From a virus, in the IMG/VR virus record IMGVR_UViG_3300025101_000097, positions 1 through 31,994 of that record: a stretch of DNA of 31,994 nt; one strand, 5' to 3'. This document shows, piece after piece, positions 3,407 through 11,819 of the stretch (its first letter is position 1; the number at the start of each line of letters is the position of its first letter). A model generated the notes under the pieces. It was not told where the DNA came from, made no database searches, and worked only from the letters and a program-made list of their open reading frames with translations. Made by a program: the position numbers and the translations under genes.

Positions 3407-3761
3407 ATGCGCGTTGTTCGGCATAGTCGGAGGTGTGCTGGCTTTGTTTGCTCCGATATCTACTTTCTAGCTGATATGGGTACAGGGCACATTCATGTGT
3501 TTCCATGTCAACATATAACAGGCGGACACCTAGCTTCTTTTGTTCGTCACCTAAAAGACGTGAGATCACTGAGCCATTCTTTCGGCGTCCAGCTTTTTTC
3601 ACGTCAAACAATAGCACCTTCCTAGTGGGGGTGATGGCTATCAGGTCAACCGGGCCTTGCTCCAAGAAAGGGGAGTAGACATAACAGTTTTGGGCGAACA
3701 GCCAGTTGGCAGCAATCAACTCGCATCGTTTACCGTCACTGTTTTTCTTTGCTGGTCTCAT
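3198..3761 (-). CDS. PD-(D/E)XK-type nuclease (resolvase-like), antisense to helicase 3' end
   Basis: The first 95 or so residues form a compact PD-(D/E)XK nuclease. They show a helix with an acidic residue (KRCELIAANWL), then GPVDLIAI carrying the catalytic Asp, then LLFDVKKAG with the D-x-K signature, then a strand (VRLLYVD). This layout matches Holliday-junction-resolvase-like and VRR-NUC-like endonucleases, which cut branched or flap DNA. The remaining 90 residues lie antisense to the last 209 bases of the helicase gene and are low-complexity and Ser/His-rich, so they may be an unselected extension. It is the only minus-strand gene in the left 11 kb. Its start faces the divergent region 3762-3830. 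Confidence 0.75.
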   Translation of the reverse strand: MRPAKKNSDGKRCELIAANWLFAQNCYVYSPFLEQGPVDLIAITPTRKVLLFDVKKAGRRKNGSVISRLLGDEQKKLGVRLLYVDMETHECALYPYQLESRYRSKQSQHTSDYAEQRASNRHFGGGLVPTISSLVHPESEQTAQSLTATSSQCVHPPCSLSSDPHTGQGDADQYDAHDPQTEHESQG

Positions 3762-3768
3762 TTGGTTA

Positions 3769-3798
3769 TTGACCTCTGGCTAAAACATAAGATAGTAT
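3769..3798 (+). promoter_or_regulatory. Candidate sigma70-type promoter for the RHH gene
   Basis: TTGACC at 3769-3774 resembles a -35 box. TAGTAT at 3793-3798, 18 bases further on, matches four of six positions of a -10 box. The element sits in the 69-base divergent gap between the nuclease and the small regulator gene, where a promoter is expected. This is pattern matching only. Confidence 0.35.
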
Positions 3799-3830
3799 AC
3801 GTTAGCTGAACAGGGAATAGGAGTAAAGGT

Positions 3831-3974
3831 GTGGATACAAGTAAGTGGAAGTCTATCGCTGTGTCGATAGATATATACAGAACATTGCGTGAGCTTGCGG
3901 ACAAGAACGACAGGTCTGTCAGTAAGCAGGTTGCGCATATGGTCAAGGCTGCGACTGAAAAGAAAGCTGCCTAA
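3831..3974 (+). CDS. Ribbon-helix-helix (Arc/MetJ-like) DNA-binding protein
   Basis: A 47-residue frame that begins with GTG, with AGGAG (3819-3823) seven bases upstream. The translation fits a ribbon-helix-helix protein: a beta strand (KSIAVSIDI, residues 7-15), a first helix (YRTLRELADKND), a turn, and a second helix beginning RSVSKQVAHMV. Such proteins dimerise through the ribbon and bind inverted or direct repeats in operators. It is followed at once by a perfect 9-bp inverted repeat overlapping a promoter-like element, so it is a good candidate repressor or autoregulator of the downstream replication operon. The fold is inferred from pattern; the target is inferred from position. Confidence 0.7.
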   Translation: MDTSKWKSIAVSIDIYRTLRELADKNDRSVSKQVAHMVKAATEKKAA

Positions 3975-3982
3975 CCAAGATT

Positions 3983-4014
3983 ACGGTGTACATTTTGGGG
4001 TTGCAGTACACCGT
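3983..4014 (+). promoter_or_regulatory. Perfect inverted repeat, candidate operator
   Basis: ACGGTGTAC at 3983-3991 is the exact reverse complement of GTACACCGT at 4006-4014, with 14 bases between. The half-site centres are 23 bp apart, about two helical turns, which suits a dimeric or tetrameric repressor. The right arm overlaps the putative -35 box at 4001-4006. A small RHH-type protein is encoded immediately upstream. The repeat could instead form an RNA hairpin if transcribed. Confidence 0.55.
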
Positions 4015-4029
4015 TGGAATATGTATAAC
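4001..4029 (+). promoter_or_regulatory. Candidate sigma70-type promoter of the replication operon
   Basis: TTGCAG (4001-4006) and TATAAC (4024-4029) are separated by exactly 17 bases. The -10 box matches five of six consensus positions and the -35 box three of six. The expected start point, near 4036, falls at the foot of the hairpin at 4037-4061, so the transcript would begin with a strong stem. Confidence 0.5.
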
Positions 4030-4036
4030 CCCGTCT

Positions 4037-4080
4037 CCGTCCGGTCAACCTGACCGGACGGCCCAAAAGCCGAAGGGCTT
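4037..4080 (+). promoter_or_regulatory. Two adjacent stem-loops in the 5' leader of the replication operon
   Basis: CCGTCCGGTCA (4037-4047) and TGACCGGACGG (4051-4061) form a perfect 11-bp stem with a 3-base loop. AAGCC (4067-4071) and GGCTT (4076-4080) form a second, 5-bp stem. Neither is followed by a T tract on the plus strand, so a plus-strand intrinsic terminator is unlikely. A 5' stabilising hairpin or a protein-binding site is more plausible. The ribosome-binding site AAGGAG (4095-4100) of the next gene remains unpaired in this fold. Confidence 0.6.
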
Positions 4081-4106
4081 AAACTTTGTACTAAAAGGAG
4101 AGTGCG

Positions 4107-4673
4107 ATGAGCGATGTGTTTTCGCTGTTTGAAGAAGAGGCAGTCAACGCCGATAAGTTTGACACAGTTGGGAAGGAGGGCGCTTCGGAGCTTTCCAACC
4201 TTATCCGTCGATCTATTCAGATCGATCAGGAGATCAAGGATGCAGAACAGCATCTCAAGGATCTCAAGTTCAAGAAAAGAAAAGTGAACGAAGAAGATAT
4301 CCCTATGCTCATGGAAGAGATGGGCATGGATAGGGTTGACGTGGATGGTAACAAGGTTACTCTCCGCCAGTTCGTTCATGCCCGTATTACCGAGGACAAA
4401 CGCGATGAGGCTTTTGGTTTCTTGCGGTCTATCGGTGAGGCCGACATCATCAAGAATGACGTGACAGTATCCTTCTCTGCTGGGCAAGACAACCAAGCGG
4501 GTGCCGTGGTCGATGACCTGCGCAACCAAGGGTTGGAGCCAGCGCAGAAGACACACGTTCATCCTATGACGTTGAAGTCTTGGGTAAAGAACCGCATAGA
4601 AAGCGGTCAGGAAATAGACTTCGATACCTTCGGAGTATTTGTCGGCACAGAAGCCAAGATCACAAGGAGCTAG
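4107..4673 (+). CDS. Coiled-coil protein of the replication operon, unknown function
   Basis: 188 residues, preceded by a strong AAGGAG. Residues about 28-65 are strongly charged and helical (IQIDQEIKDAEQHLKDL, then KFKKRKVNEEDIP), indicating a coiled coil. A smaller beta/alpha region follows (MDRVDVDGNKVTLRQFVHAR). The C-terminal third (HPMTLKSWVKNRIESG) looks helical and could be a small nucleic-acid-binding domain. It is the first gene after the promoter and leader at 4001-4080, and lies two bases before the SSB-like gene. Genes in this position in podophages often encode DNA-replication accessory factors. I cannot name the family. Confidence 0.75.
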   Translation: MSDVFSLFEEEAVNADKFDTVGKEGASELSNLIRRSIQIDQEIKDAEQHLKDLKFKKRKVNEEDIPMLMEEMGMDRVDVDGNKVTLRQFVHARITEDKRDEAFGFLRSIGEADIIKNDVTVSFSAGQDNQAGAVVDDLRNQGLEPAQKTHVHPMTLKSWVKNRIESGQEIDFDTFGVFVGTEAKITRS

Positions 4674-4675
4674 AC

Positions 4676-5476
4676 ATGGCTGATACAGCAGTAGTAGAAA
4701 AGAAAGAAAACCTTCCCTCAACTATCATGGCTGACATGGCTCAGTTCGCTGGTGAGGGGATGGATAGCATCACCGCAGATGATATGCAGATCCCGTTCTT
4801 GCGGGTGCTGCAAGCTCTGTCTCCAGAGATCCAGAAGAACGATCCCAAGTTTATCAAGGGCGCGTCGGCTGGTGACCTAGTCAACACCGTTACTGGTGAG
4901 ACTTGGGATGGAGACGAGGGTGTCGTGGTCATACCTTGCGGGTACACTCTCAAGTATCTTGAGTTTGGTTTGCGTGACTCAGGTGGTGGCTTTCAGGGTG
5001 AAATCCCTGCCAACCATCCCGACCTTGCCAACACTACCCGCGAGGGTAATGCGGAGATGCTACCAAGTGGCAATGAGTTGGTTCGTTCAGCCCAGCATCT
5101 TGTGATGATTGTGGACACCAAGACAGGTGCTACACAGCAAGCTATCTGTGACATGAAGAAGACTCAGCTCAAAGTCTCACGCCGCTGGAACACACAGATG
5201 CGTATGGTTCAGTATGACGGTCCTAATGGTCTGTTTAACCCACCTATGTGGGGCACTGCGTGGCGTCTTACAGTGGTCTCAGAGAGCAACGACAGGGGTA
5301 CATGGTACAACTATGCTATCGCCCGTGTAGAGCCATCCGAGGTGCCAGATGCAGCATTCATGGCTGCGCGTTCCTTCTTCCAGTCGTTTAAGTCAGGTGA
5401 GGTACAGACCTCCGCTGGCACGAGTGATGAGATGACTAAGAAGCAGGATAACGACGGAGACGATATCCCATTCTAA
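4676..5476 (+). CDS. Putative single-stranded-DNA-binding protein
   Basis: 266 residues. The decisive feature is the C-terminus: an acidic stretch ending DGDDIPF, the same tip that bacterial SSB proteins use to recruit replication partners. The body is beta-rich, with several aromatic residues (ETWDGDEGVVVIPCGY, MWGTAWRLTVVSE, GTWYNYAIARVEP), as expected for an OB-like DNA-binding fold, though I cannot confirm the fold by eye. It lies between a coiled-coil protein and the primase gene in the replication operon. I read it as the phage SSB, analogous in role to T7 gp2.5. The start ATG at 4676 follows AAGGAG by six bases. Confidence 0.65.
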   Translation: MADTAVVEKKENLPSTIMADMAQFAGEGMDSITADDMQIPFLRVLQALSPEIQKNDPKFIKGASAGDLVNTVTGETWDGDEGVVVIPCGYTLKYLEFGLRDSGGGFQGEIPANHPDLANTTREGNAEMLPSGNELVRSAQHLVMIVDTKTGATQQAICDMKKTQLKVSRRWNTQMRMVQYDGPNGLFNPPMWGTAWRLTVVSESNDRGTWYNYAIARVEPSEVPDAAFMAARSFFQSFKSGEVQTSAGTSDEMTKKQDNDGDDIPF

Positions 5477-5478
5477 TC

Positions 5479-5602
5479 GCCGGGATGTTGCGACGTGGGT
5501 CAGGGGGCCGCGTGTATAAAGACCAAATGATCCCGGCAAGGGCTTACCTCGCCCTGGTAAATCATCATTTGGTTACCCCCTGCTCTTTCTAACACGAGGG
5601 GG
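5479..5602 (+). promoter_or_regulatory. Candidate structured RNA leader / translational switch before the primase
   Basis: This 131-base gap holds many complementary arms. GCCGGGAT (5479-5486) pairs with ATCCCGGC (5530-5537). CAGGGGG (5501-5507) pairs with CCCCCTG (5576-5582). ACCAAATGAT (5522-5531) pairs with ATCATTTGGT (5564-5573). AGGGC (5539-5543) pairs with GCCCT (5551-5555), competing with TTACC (5544-5548) and GGTAA (5556-5560). CCCCCT (5576-5581) can also pair with AGGGGG (5597-5602), which contains most of the primase ribosome-binding site. The first helix would cross the second and third, forming a pseudoknot. A TATAAA at 5515-5520 leaves an internal promoter open as an alternative reading. 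No known riboswitch class is recognised. Confidence 0.5.
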
Positions 5603-5607
5603 CAGAG

Positions 5608-7137
5608 ATGAACCTAGAAGAAAAGTTCATGGCGGCGTTTGATGGTTTTAGCGGCGCACATGGACAGACACAAATATCAGAAGAGAGACGCGCTGGTAAG
5701 CAGAAAGCGAACTCTCGTATCGTCAGACAACCACTGACGCTTGATCTCGTTAAGTCTCATCTCGGCGGTGCCCGAGGCGTGGGATCTATACCTATTAAGG
5801 AAAACAACAAGTGCTTGTTTGGTGCGCTTGACATTGACCAGTATCCTCTTGACCTCGCTGCGATAGATCGCAGGCTGCGGGAGAGTGAGATACCGTGCAT
5901 CGTTTGCCGATCAAAGTCAGGCGGTGCGCATATATTCTTTTTCTTTACCGAAGAGATAAGTGCCGGAGAATTTCGTGACAAGGCCGGCGAGATCTCTGCG
6001 TTTCTTGGGTATGGTGGGTGCGAAATATTTCCCAAGCAAGAGCAGATTCTCGTCGAGCGTGGAGATGTTGGTAACTTCATCAACCTGCCGTACTTTGACC
6101 ACGAGCAGACCACTAGGTATGCGGTCAAGGAAGATGGTCAGGATGCTACGCTGGAGGAATTTGTTGAGTTAGTTGAGAAGCGCAAGTGTACACCCAAAGA
6201 ATTTGTGAACACTAAACTTGGCAACAGCATTGATGAGTTCAACGAGTACCCCCCATGTCTACAGGGTATGTTCTCTGATGGTGTGCCAGAGGGTACAAGA
6301 AACACTGTGATGTTTGCGGCATGTGTGGCTTGCAAAAAAGAGCAGCCCGAAAGCTGGAAATCTAGGCTGGAGGAGATCAACACAAAGTATGTGCAGCCTT
6401 CTTTGCCTGCGTCAGAGATCGTCACCATACAGCAGCAGCACGAGAAGAAAGAGTACGGCTACCCCTGCCAGCAGGAGCCGCTGAAGTCTCGCTGCAACAA
6501 ATCATTGTGCAAGACAAGGAAGCATGGGGTTGGGGGCAACAGGGCAAGCGCAGACATCACAGGGCTGTGCGTGGTTAAGTCCGAGCCACCTGTCTGGTTC
6601 TGTGATGTTGATGGTAGCCGCGTCGAGTTGACCACTGAAGAGCTACAGACTCCACAAAAGTTTCAGAAGGCTTGCATGGAACAGGTCAGGATTATGCCAC
6701 CACTTTTGAAGATGGCAGACTGGCAAGACCTAGTTTCGATGATGATGGAGGACATGAGCGAGATAGATGTGCCAGAGGAACTGACCTATAAGGGACAGTT
6801 TGTTGATTATCTGGAAGAATTCTGTGTCGGTAGAGTTCAAGCTGCAAGCCCAGAGGAGCTATCTCTTGGTAAGCCGTGGACAGATGAAGGCATCACATAT
6901 TTTAGGATTGAGGCTTTAATTAAATATCTGCGGAACCACCGCTTCGATAGCTATAGTCGTGGGCAAATACAGGAACGTCTGAAAGAGATGAACCCTGATG
7001 GTAAGGCTAATGGGTTTAAGAAATTTAAGGACTCAAAAGGTGAGTGGAAAAACATACGAGTTTGGCATGTGCCGGAGTTCACTTCTCAGGTTGAAGTGCC
7101 GTCGGTAGAGGTTAAAGAAGCGGAGGTGCCGTTTTAA
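5608..7137 (+). CDS. Archaeo-eukaryotic-type primase (AEP, TOTE-primase-like)
   Basis: 509 residues. The N-terminal 170 carry the AEP signatures: LDID with the metal-binding Asp pair (D75, D77), SKSGGAH (102-108) with the conserved His, EIFPKQ (E139 the likely third metal ligand) and GNFINLPY (155-162). This set resembles the primase domain of TOTE conflict systems. It should synthesise primers for the PolA encoded downstream. A middle region holds C217, then a C-x8-C-x4-C cluster at 287-301 that could bind zinc or an iron-sulphur centre. The C-terminal third is unassigned and ends EAEVPF, like an SSB tip. There is no helicase domain. The stop overlaps the next start by one base. Confidence 0.82.
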   Translation: MNLEEKFMAAFDGFSGAHGQTQISEERRAGKQKANSRIVRQPLTLDLVKSHLGGARGVGSIPIKENNKCLFGALDIDQYPLDLAAIDRRLRESEIPCIVCRSKSGGAHIFFFFTEEISAGEFRDKAGEISAFLGYGGCEIFPKQEQILVERGDVGNFINLPYFDHEQTTRYAVKEDGQDATLEEFVELVEKRKCTPKEFVNTKLGNSIDEFNEYPPCLQGMFSDGVPEGTRNTVMFAACVACKKEQPESWKSRLEEINTKYVQPSLPASEIVTIQQQHEKKEYGYPCQQEPLKSRCNKSLCKTRKHGVGGNRASADITGLCVVKSEPPVWFCDVDGSRVELTTEELQTPQKFQKACMEQVRIMPPLLKMADWQDLVSMMMEDMSEIDVPEELTYKGQFVDYLEEFCVGRVQAASPEELSLGKPWTDEGITYFRIEALIKYLRNHRFDSYSRGQIQERLKEMNPDGKANGFKKFKDSKGEWKNIRVWHVPEFTSQVEVPSVEVKEAEVPF

Positions 7138-8660
7138 TGGAAACAACTATCTTTGGCCCACCGGGCACAGGCAAGACAACTACGCTGCTGAACATTGTTG
7201 ATGATGCCTTGCAGGGCGGCATGAACCCAAGCCGCATAGGTTTTGTTTCGTTCAGTAAGAAGGCTGCAACGGAAGCAAAAGAAAGAGCATTACAGAAGTT
7301 TGGAATCGACCCAAAGTACCTAACGCATTTCAGGACTTTACATTCTATGGCGTTCCAATACCTCGGCCTTAGATCACAGGACGTGATGAAGGGCGCTGAC
7401 TACACTGAGCTTTCTACTCTGGTGGGACTCCCGTTCTCGTCTCATGCATCTCTTACAATGGACGACGGGCTACTGTTCAAAGCAGGGAGGGGTGGGGATG
7501 CGTATCTGAATCTTATCAACCTAGCTAGGGCAAGGCAGGTCAGTGTTGAGACACAGTATCATCAGTTAAACGACTGGCGGATTCAGTTGCGTCAACTCAG
7601 AGTTATAGACGGTGCGCTTACATCTTATAAAAGTGCAAAGGGCAAGATGGATTTCGTGGACATGATTGAGCAGTTTGTTGAAGGCGGGGAGGGTCCGCAT
7701 TTCGATCTGCTGATCGTTGATGAGGCACAGGACTTGGTTCCGTTGCAGTGGCGCATGGTGAAAGACATTCTAGTTCCGAGGTCCGAGCGCACATATTATG
7801 CGGGCGACGATGACCAGTGTATCTATTCTTGGATGGGCGTTGACGTTCAAGATTTTATGAAGTCCTGTGATGACGTGAGAGTATTGAGTAAGTCATACAG
7901 GCTTCCCGCACCAGTGTATAACGTCGCGCAAAACATCGTAAAACGAGTGAGCTTGCGACAAGAAAAACACTGGTCACCCAATGATCACGATGGATCAGTC
8001 AATTGGCACTATGATATACTGGACGTAGACATCCGGTCTGGTGAGTGGTTGATTCTTGGTAGAACAAACAACATCGTCAACAGAGTTGGCACCATGCTCA
8101 AAGAGCAAGGCTTCGTGTTCTGGCGCGAAGGCCGAGGTAAAAACGGATGGTCTGTATCCCCTAACACTTTAGAAGCACTGGAGGTATGGTTACGGCTATG
8201 CAGAGGAGAGACGTTTTCATCCGAGGAACTAAAACAATTTGGCAAGTTTATGAGGAAGGAAGCTATAACCCCGGCTGGGAAGCGACGTTTGAACAATTTA
8301 GACCCCGAAGAAACCTACACTCTCGACGACATTATAGAGAAGTGCAGCTTACTCGTTACACGAGAGACACACTGGTCGCAGGTGATCAAGGTGTCGGACA
8401 GGGAGGTGACATACATCACCTCAGTTCGCCGGAGTGGGGAGAAGATTCTGGGGAACTCCAAGCCGAGGATTCGTCTATCGACGATTCATGCCGCGAAAGG
8501 TGGGGAGTCGGATAATGTAATCCTTCTCACCGAGACCAACACAGCCTGCGAAAAAAGCCTCGACCAAGATGGCGAAGCCCGTTGTTTCTATGTGGGAGCA
8601 ACGAGGGCCAAGAAAAACTTACACATAGTTGAATCAGGGAATCCGAGGTACAAGATATGA
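7137..8660 (+). CDS. UvrD/Rep-type superfamily 1 DNA helicase
   Basis: 507 residues with all core SF1 motifs: Walker A GPPGTGKT (7-14), motif Ia around FVSFSKKAA, DEAQD (195-199), GDDDQCIY (223-230), SYRLP (motif IV region), STIHAAKG (448-455) and VGATRA (486-491). It should unwind duplex DNA with 3' to 5' polarity, using ATP. It is shorter than E. coli UvrD (about 720 residues) and lacks much of the accessory 2B region. It lies between primase and polymerase genes and no DnaB or gp4-like helicase is visible, so it may be the working replicative helicase; that is inference. It overlaps the neighbours at both ends by one to four bases. Confidence 0.92.
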   Translation: METTIFGPPGTGKTTTLLNIVDDALQGGMNPSRIGFVSFSKKAATEAKERALQKFGIDPKYLTHFRTLHSMAFQYLGLRSQDVMKGADYTELSTLVGLPFSSHASLTMDDGLLFKAGRGGDAYLNLINLARARQVSVETQYHQLNDWRIQLRQLRVIDGALTSYKSAKGKMDFVDMIEQFVEGGEGPHFDLLIVDEAQDLVPLQWRMVKDILVPRSERTYYAGDDDQCIYSWMGVDVQDFMKSCDDVRVLSKSYRLPAPVYNVAQNIVKRVSLRQEKHWSPNDHDGSVNWHYDILDVDIRSGEWLILGRTNNIVNRVGTMLKEQGFVFWREGRGKNGWSVSPNTLEALEVWLRLCRGETFSSEELKQFGKFMRKEAITPAGKRRLNNLDPEETYTLDDIIEKCSLLVTRETHWSQVIKVSDREVTYITSVRRSGEKILGNSKPRIRLSTIHAAKGGESDNVILLTETNTACEKSLDQDGEARCFYVGATRAKKNLHIVESGNPRYKI

Positions 8661-11210: not shown

Positions 11211-11236
11211 CGAAGTCCACGAGAATCGACATTTTT
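11166..11236 (+). terminator. Candidate terminator at the convergence of the two operons
   Basis: TCGATTCTC (11166-11174) and GAGAATCGA (11221-11229) are a perfect 9-bp inverted repeat, followed by CA and five Ts (11232-11236). The 46-base loop is long for an intrinsic terminator, and the left arm lies inside the last gene. Short inner pairings (GGAC with GTCC) may compact it. The location between convergent genes favours a terminator role. Confidence 0.35.
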
Positions 11237-11255
11237 ATCTAATGATTTTAGTTAC

Positions 11256-11708
11256 TTACTCAAGCTCTGCAAGTGCCCGCATACGCTCGACCAAGCGTCT
11301 TGCGCGGTTGGGAACCTGAGTATACCACCTGGAATCGACCATCTCGTCGGCTGCTGCCATAAAGTCACGAGCGTCCACACCACGTTTCATACCCTTGAAC
11401 TTGCTGAGTCTAGGACGGCCCATGTTGAACATCATATTTGCAATGATATGCTGACACTCTTCGGGCAGCTCGTCGAAGTCTGGGTACAGAACCTTGCACT
11501 CTTCTACCGTAACAGCCATGTCGAGGTTGAACAGTTGCTTGACCCGCTCTTGTTCGACCACTGTACCGACAGGCTTGCCGTGTTCTTGGTCCGACTCTGT
11601 AATCAAATGACCGATACCCGTTGTGGGTAGACCAAGGTGATCCAAATAAATTTCGTACTTGCAGCCTTCGTCCTCTGCGATTTCCTCGCGCAATCTATCT
11701 TTATTCAT
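11256..11708 (-). CDS. T4-type lysozyme (glycoside hydrolase family 24 endolysin)
   Basis: 150 residues from the ATG at 11708, chosen over an in-frame start at 11729 because GAGG lies just upstream and it aligns with the T4 lysozyme N-terminus. The catalytic triad is intact: E14, D23 and T29, spaced as in T4 lysozyme (E-x8-D-x5-T), followed by GIGHL. The C-terminal lobe contains NMMFNMGRPRLSKFKGM and WYTQVPNRARRLVE, close to T4 equivalents. It cleaves the glycan strands of peptidoglycan at the end of infection. There is no signal peptide or N-terminal membrane anchor, so it should need a holin; none is recognisable here. It is the last gene of the minus-strand late block. Confidence 0.93.
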   Translation of the reverse strand: MNKDRLREEIAEDEGCKYEIYLDHLGLPTTGIGHLITESDQEHGKPVGTVVEQERVKQLFNLDMAVTVEECKVLYPDFDELPEECQHIIANMMFNMGRPRLSKFKGMKRGVDARDFMAAADEMVDSRWYTQVPNRARRLVERMRALAELE

Positions 11709-11723
11709 AGCTAACCTCGTTAC

Positions 11724-11783
11724 ATACACAGGTCTTCATACTTAGCAGTATGGACTCTGTGCCGGCTCATATCGCCTGTGTGT
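11724..11783 (-). promoter_or_regulatory. Hairpin-rich leader upstream of lysozyme
   Basis: The 111-base gap between the 1313-residue protein gene and lysozyme contains ACACAGG (11726-11732) complementary to CCTGTGT (11775-11781), enclosing CATAC (11737-11741) and GTATG (11748-11752). On the minus strand, TTGTTT (11789-11794) and TATGAG (11766-11771) lie 17 bases apart and could be a weak promoter. No T tract follows either stem. This is the only gap of this size in the minus-strand operon, so separate control of lysis is possible. Confidence 0.3.
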
Positions 11784-11819
11784 TTGTAAAACAATAAACT
11801 CTTCAGCCAGTTTAACATA

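Follow-up and report, generated by a model that had tools for sequence, protein, structure and literature searches.

A conserved double pseudoknot RNA between the SSB-like and AEP primase genes of related phages

In a marine phage, 131 nt separate the gene for a putative single-stranded (ss) DNA-binding protein (SSB-like), whose stop codon ends at position 5476, from the gene for an AEP-type primase. This gap lies within the window, the whole 31,994-nt stretch of viral DNA analysed here (IMG/VR record IMGVR_UViG_3300025101_000097), and it forms two interlocked pseudoknots, P1/P3 and P2-loop/PK, which together comprise four helices. The element is a conserved structured RNA, with compensatory changes that go beyond both shuffle and sliding controls, and it apparently represents an undescribed family that is absent from Rfam 15. 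Phage mRNAs with cis-acting pseudoknots are already known, and the double pseudoknot adds a new form to them. Quite possibly, the element serves as a 3'-end boundary of the SSB-like cistron, with an effect on primase translation that is limited to certain lineages.

The gap and its fold

The product of the upstream gene matches Pfam PF23977 (E 1.5e-64) as well as phrog_2402, and a structure search with its predicted structure (pLDDT 74.7) returned no solved-structure match at E <= 0.001. The label "SSB-like" comes from its acidic C-terminal tail, DDIPF, and from a depositor's annotation, since the homologue in phage Lydia is described as "ssDNA-binding protein, T4 gp32-like". We take the DDIPF end to resemble the tip of bacterial SSB, and we infer that the protein binds ssDNA. 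An initial annotation, made from the letters of the window, considered the gap that follows this gene to be unusual. It does stand out, although further gaps of 150, 481, and 609 nt are present between listed genes. The two longest of these, at 3626-4106 (481 nt) and 11211-11819 (609 nt), have no assigned gene in a genome that is otherwise tightly packed.

The same annotation placed the arms of the structure correctly, and the main ones are exact inverted repeats. These include the 10-bp stem formed by ACCAAATGAT (5522-5531) and ATCATTTGGT (5564-5573), and the 8-bp helix formed by GCCGGGAT (5479-5486) and ATCCCGGC (5530-5537), which had been proposed to create a pseudoknot. The competing 5-bp stems within the loop, AGGGC (5539-5543) with GCCCT (5551-5555) and TTACC (5544-5548) with GGTAA (5556-5560), are also seen. 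CAGGGGG (5501-5507) is an exact inverted repeat of CCCCCTG (5576-5582), so that this helix has 7 bp rather than the 6 originally given. However, hairpin P2 (5493-5498/5508-5513) was overlooked. Since the P2 loop carries CAGGGGG, the pairing of this arm is a pseudoknot (PK) and not a simple long-range stem. Although P1 and P3 share nucleotides, the outer 6 bp of P1 (5479-5484/5532-5537) are compatible with a full P3 (Table 1).

Table 1. Features in and around the SSB-like/primase gap of the window
Feature	Position	Strand	Remarks
Upstream gene, putative ssDNA-binding protein (Pam3_gp34/phrog_2402 family), C-terminus DDIPF	4676-5476	+	PF23977, phrog_2402
P1 5' strand, pairs with 5530-5537	5479-5486	+	begins 2 nt past the stop codon
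P2 5' strand, ACGUGG	5493-5498	+	present in all full members
PK 5' strand, CAGGGGG, inside the P2 loop, pairs with 5576-5582	5501-5507	+	mostly invariant G-C
P2 3' strand, CCGCGU	5508-5513	+	
Unpaired A immediately 5' of P3	5520	+	invariant in relatives
P3 5' strand, 11 bp, pairs with 5564-5574	5521-5531	+	inverted repeat and covariation
P1 3' strand, abuts P3 (0-nt junction)	5530-5537	+	first 2 nt shared with P3
Variable loop, two alternative 5-bp stems	5539-5560	+	in relatives, optional hairpin P4; absent from group G
P3 3' strand	5564-5574	+	
Unpaired A separating P3 from PK	5575	+	invariant in relatives
PK 3' strand, CCCCCUG	5576-5582	+	
Alternative hairpin, 5580-5589/5596-5605, hiding the primase Shine-Dalgarno sequence	5580-5605	+	overlaps PK by 3 nt; lineage-limited
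Primase Shine-Dalgarno sequence, AGGGGG	5597-5602	+	
AEP-type primase gene	5608-7137	+	PF22548, E 1.1e-16; phrog_21866, E 1.1e-85

Relatives of the element were sought at hundreds of loci in related contigs, gathered by means of the primase and SSB-like proteins, and the gaps were then compared. There are 32 full-length relatives. By sequence they form about eight groups, namely the window group, B (L009-L024), C (L026, L036, L047, L052, L053, L120), F (L176, L177, L181, L225, L305), G (L134, L211, L316), H (L189-L191), I (L212, L214), and J (L287, L294). Four reduced forms (L028, L027/L033, L041, and L275/L276) keep P2 and PK, with or without P3. From 5' to 3', the full element consists of the first strand of P1, a joiner of ~6-10 nt, the first strand of P2, 1-2 nt, the first strand of PK, the second strand of P2, and a short joiner ending in an invariant A. 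Then come the first strand of P3, the second strand of P1 with 0 nt between, the variable loop, the second strand of P3, an invariant A, the second strand of PK, mostly unpaired nt (10-14 in most members), and a Shine-Dalgarno sequence.

P1 begins ~0-3 nt past the upstream stop and overlaps the stop codon in some groups (L287, L189). P3 spans about one helical turn in full members, with 9-11 uninterrupted pairs in most; in groups H and J, inspection shows it to be interrupted by a mismatch or bulge. Reduced forms without P1 have a shorter P3 or none, and the length of P3 may be set by the need for a one-turn bridge from P1 to the P2/PK end. Among the unpaired positions, only the two A's at 5520 and 5575 are invariant; the others are hardly conserved.

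Covariation and distribution

The initial annotation had suggested looking for compensatory changes in homologous gaps, and the element passes this test decisively. In A1, an alignment of 22 sequences made with plain MAFFT, 95.8% of cells are paired and 20 of 31 pairs have two-sided changes. When the partners are slid by 1-3 columns, at most 53% of cells are paired and at most 9 pairs have two-sided changes, and shuffles of A1 never match the real paired percentage, two-sided cell count, or covariation score. A second alignment of 32 sequences (A2) was built with a model holding only P2 and P3; even though P1 is not modelled there, 7 of its 8 aligned pairs have two-sided changes. Nine of the 10 aligned pairs of P3 covary on both sides. 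PK, which is mostly invariant G-C, has 1-2 covarying pairs out of 7 (one in A2). The pairing columns were picked from the same sequences as were tested, but the sliding control and the large effect make it unlikely that this bias matters. Wobble pairs identify the selected molecule as RNA of the + strand, since on this strand there are 45 G-U versus 7 A-C combinations.

Local folding of the window gap is more stable than that of shuffles (z -2.4), and a descriptor of the four helices scores 74 in the gap; the maximum is 59 among 300 dinucleotide shuffles of the gap and 64 among the remaining 131-nt tiles of the window on both strands. In group H the margin is narrower (63 versus a shuffle maximum of 60). 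Rfam 15 yields no gathering match in the window, and the element itself has no match at E 5 or below; among relatives, L134 and L028 have only weak matches that lie off the element, and L287, L189, L212, and L041 have none at E 2. A search of the open-licence literature found no description of this fold, or of any motif upstream of phage AEP primases. The early description of a compact, pseudoknotted, cis-acting RNA of no known class is borne out by the strong covariation and the lack of an Rfam 15 match. A DNA promoter near TATAAA (5515-5520), considered at that time as a competing source of conservation, is not: the sequence occurs in the window group only, and no σ70-like promoter was found. 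Read-through of the stop codon into a fusion protein is also rejected, because many of the gap lengths are not multiples of three.

The element is found only between the SSB-like gene and the AEP primase gene, with the SSB-like gene immediately upstream every time. A covariance search of 82 loci matched only this gap, with at most one copy per genome, at E values between 1e-38 and 1e-19 (full members) or between 1e-12 and 1e-7 (reduced forms). Likewise, a search over the entire 56.6 kb of a phage record whose flanking genes are nearly identical gives a single copy. When 2.9 million viral contigs and 84,980 genomes were scanned for the pattern, no true members turned up outside of the SSB-like/primase junction; the other candidates from these scans are without the helices, and in the covariance search L301 gave E 5.3 and L300 nothing.

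What follows the SSB-like gene

The element is interchangeable with plain hairpins. The primases of L041, which has a reduced pseudoknot, and L048, which has a hairpin, are 96% identical, and those of L026 (full form) and L028 (P2 and PK only) are 95% identical. In L006, the SSB-like and primase genes are ~99% identical to those of the window (4600-7140 compared), yet the gap is an unrelated, hairpin-rich sequence of 226 nt. This gap is closely similar to that of L055, although the L055 primase and SSB-like protein are only 82% and 55% identical, respectively. L224 resembles L006, and the gap of these two looks to have been exchanged as a cassette. On a primase tree, in which the row for L024 is mislabelled (its upstream gene was not read to the end), the full form needs at least 7 changes. 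L006 also has ~290 nt of extra sequence directly 5' of its SSB-like gene. The gaps before the primase in L254 (183 nt) and L265 (218 nt) contain a simple hairpin with a loop insertion of 120-155 nt, which may itself be structured.

Within the clade, an association with the SSB-like gene is inseparable from one with the primase, since every full member found lies directly upstream of the primase gene. Distant phages, in which the SSB-like gene is 27-41% identical, point to the former. In this small sample (16 + 6 loci, not phylogenetically weighted), a strong hairpin is present after the stop of the SSB-like gene in 14 of 16 cases, with z <= -2 in 13, while the control place, after the gene preceding the SSB-like gene, has z <= -2 in 1 of 16, and none of six primases without an SSB-like neighbor has a strong upstream hairpin. 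The gene that comes next after the hairpin can encode a primase, a Dda-type helicase, an endonuclease, an SSB, a deaminase, or an unknown product. That hairpins follow the SSB-like gene regardless of its neighbor suggests that the place belongs to the SSB-like cistron, as its 3' end, and not to the primase, as a 5' leader. Strong hairpins or terminators lie directly 3' of the Pam3_gp34-family gene in L391, L392, L395, L401-L404, and L406-L408; the hosts of phages with such a hairpin are Pseudomonas, Vibrio, Serratia, Escherichia, Acinetobacter, and Salmonella. Several of the distant hairpins resemble rho-independent terminators, and that of LBL3 carries such an annotation. No rho-independent terminator-like site was found in the window gap, and among the groups a U-tract is present in group B only.

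Boundary, operator, or switch

In the explanation that we favor, a compact, hard-to-unwind fold right behind the stop codon would act mechanically, shielding the upstream segment of the message or defining its 3' end, through a block of 3'-to-5' decay, through processing, or through partial termination. An effect on mRNA stability or on stoichiometry would follow, with the SSB-like protein made in excess over the primase and the downstream replication proteins. In the branch that contains the window, the fold would sequester a C-rich strand that could otherwise pair with the primase Shine-Dalgarno sequence, and would secondarily favor translation of the primase. Since a U-tract is missing from most members, outright termination is unlikely in the clade. 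For protection a plain hairpin would be enough, yet the exact fold is selected, and its geometry (a P3 of about one turn and a zero-length P1 junction) is kept in nearly all full members; this hints at a more specific role.

The initial annotation placed the emphasis instead on primase translation, proposing that CCCCCT (5576-5581) pairs either with the upstream arm or with AGGGGG (5597-5602) at the ribosome-binding site (RBS). The latter pairing is indeed an exact inverted repeat, but it is not the strongest occluder; the hairpin 5580-5589/5596-5605 is preferred, and neither pairing is conserved across all relatives. Several groups with the full fold have AGGAG as RBS, which forms no pairing with the C-strand. 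In computations with the PK strand occupied, the Shine-Dalgarno sequence becomes more accessible (for example, from 0.0 to 0.5) in L028, L041, the window, and groups B and C. The rise is partial in F and G, opposite in L316, and missing in H and J, and RBS pairing was rejected as the conserved core for this reason. In the close relative L007, the gap has only 32 nt and is without the double pseudoknot; here a 13-bp hairpin (-17.1 kcal/mol, z -6.2), with no competing upstream element, hides the primase Shine-Dalgarno sequence almost fully. Given this variation among groups and the L007 hairpin, occlusion is a lineage-limited extra and not part of the conserved core.

An on/off switch, in which a formed PK leaves the Shine-Dalgarno sequence open and a broken PK hides it, under the control of a ligand, of temperature, or of ribosomes finishing the upstream gene, agrees with the computed accessibility in the window, B, C, L028, and L041, and P1 would overlap the footprint of a terminating ribosome. 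However, groups F, G, H, and J keep the full fold with a partial effect or none, so that an expression platform controlling the RBS is not found in all members; L007 retains the occluding hairpin without the pseudoknots; and two invariant A's hardly amount to a conserved ligand pocket. As a general feature of the family, the switch is not supported, since close relatives carry a plain hairpin or nothing and the hairpins track the SSB-like gene. We therefore consider a switch improbable. A ligand riboswitch is among the less likely possibilities, as are a ribozyme and a DNA origin. Nested pseudoknots are frequent in small ribozymes, and the P2 hairpin, with its G-rich pseudoknotting loop, presumably resembles the P1 hairpin of pistol, while the strand order of the element is, as we take it, unlike that of pistol and HDV. 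Permuted ribozymes with two core pseudoknots do exist (PMC10085705). Yet no ribozyme in Rfam matches even with E values as high as 5 allowed, the two A's are the sole invariant unpaired positions, and plain hairpins can replace the element, which makes it very unlikely that a self-cleaving ribozyme or a permuted relative (pistol, HDV-like) cuts the transcript between the two genes. A structure in ssDNA (a replication origin or a primer site for the primase) appears least likely of all: the element does lie between two replication genes, and an ssDNA form was at one time considered for the STAXI motif, which lies near SSB genes (PMC2864571), but the excess of G-U over A-C on the coding strand is that expected of RNA, and the element is altogether missing in L007.

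The main rival to a boundary element, by our analysis, would be an operator through which the SSB-like protein, by binding, controls translation of the primase. Protein in excess of the available ssDNA would bind the knotted RNA, spread over the 10-14 nt and the Shine-Dalgarno sequence, and turn the primase off. T4 gp32 represses through its own leader, which contains a pseudoknot and an unstructured RBS (PMC535899). The layout here is similar and is constant, with a phage RNA pseudoknot, an unstructured spacer, and a Shine-Dalgarno sequence, and an SSB or SSB-like gene is involved in both cases, directly upstream every time in the phages studied here. There is also a precedent for an SSB controlling another replication protein, since M13 gp5 represses gene 2 (cited in PMC535899); the likeness to that case would be the control of another replication mRNA, although the RNA target differs. 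Unlike the T4/RB69 gene 32 operator, a ~28-nt single pseudoknot with UUAAA repeats in the 5' leader of the SSB gene itself (PMC535899), the element is a double pseudoknot of ~105 nt behind the SSB-like gene and before the primase, without UUAAA repeats, and binding of the protein to it is putative. Moreover, unrelated hairpins can substitute even where the SSB-like and primase genes hardly differ (window versus L006), and hairpins follow the SSB-like gene also when the next gene is unrelated. Thus, we view an operator as rather unlikely.

Other known systems can be compared as well. The structures of the Rhodobacter puf operon are plain hairpins, whereas those here are interlocked pseudoknots. 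In puf, an intercistronic hairpin sets the protein ratio by segmental mRNA stability (cited in PMC11354728); the likeness is an intercistronic RNA structure within one operon, and an effect on the ratio is only proposed here. The L17 downstream element is, similarly, a structured RNA in a 3' UTR, and STAXI consists of pseudoknots near SSB genes, repeated two or three times (PMC2864571). The present element matches neither in Rfam, and it differs from STAXI in being a single copy with a different arrangement.

It is conceivable, though we hold this more loosely than the boundary itself, that the double pseudoknot, set by a helix of about one turn, is a new class of RNA fold, a knotted barrier in a phage replication operon. 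Such a barrier could be either a bacterial counterpart of the exoribonuclease-resistant viral RNAs, shielding the SSB message, or an operator through which the SSB-like protein senses free ssDNA and throttles the primase. Public contigs already hold natural deletion and swap mutants of the element, and its long helices covary strongly. Thereby, it becomes testable how the SSB-to-primase ratio is set in a phage and whether, in bacteria, knotted RNAs serve as decay barriers or as SSB sensors. Finally, the hairpins found after this SSB-like family in very different phages offer a general clue to how the family is expressed.
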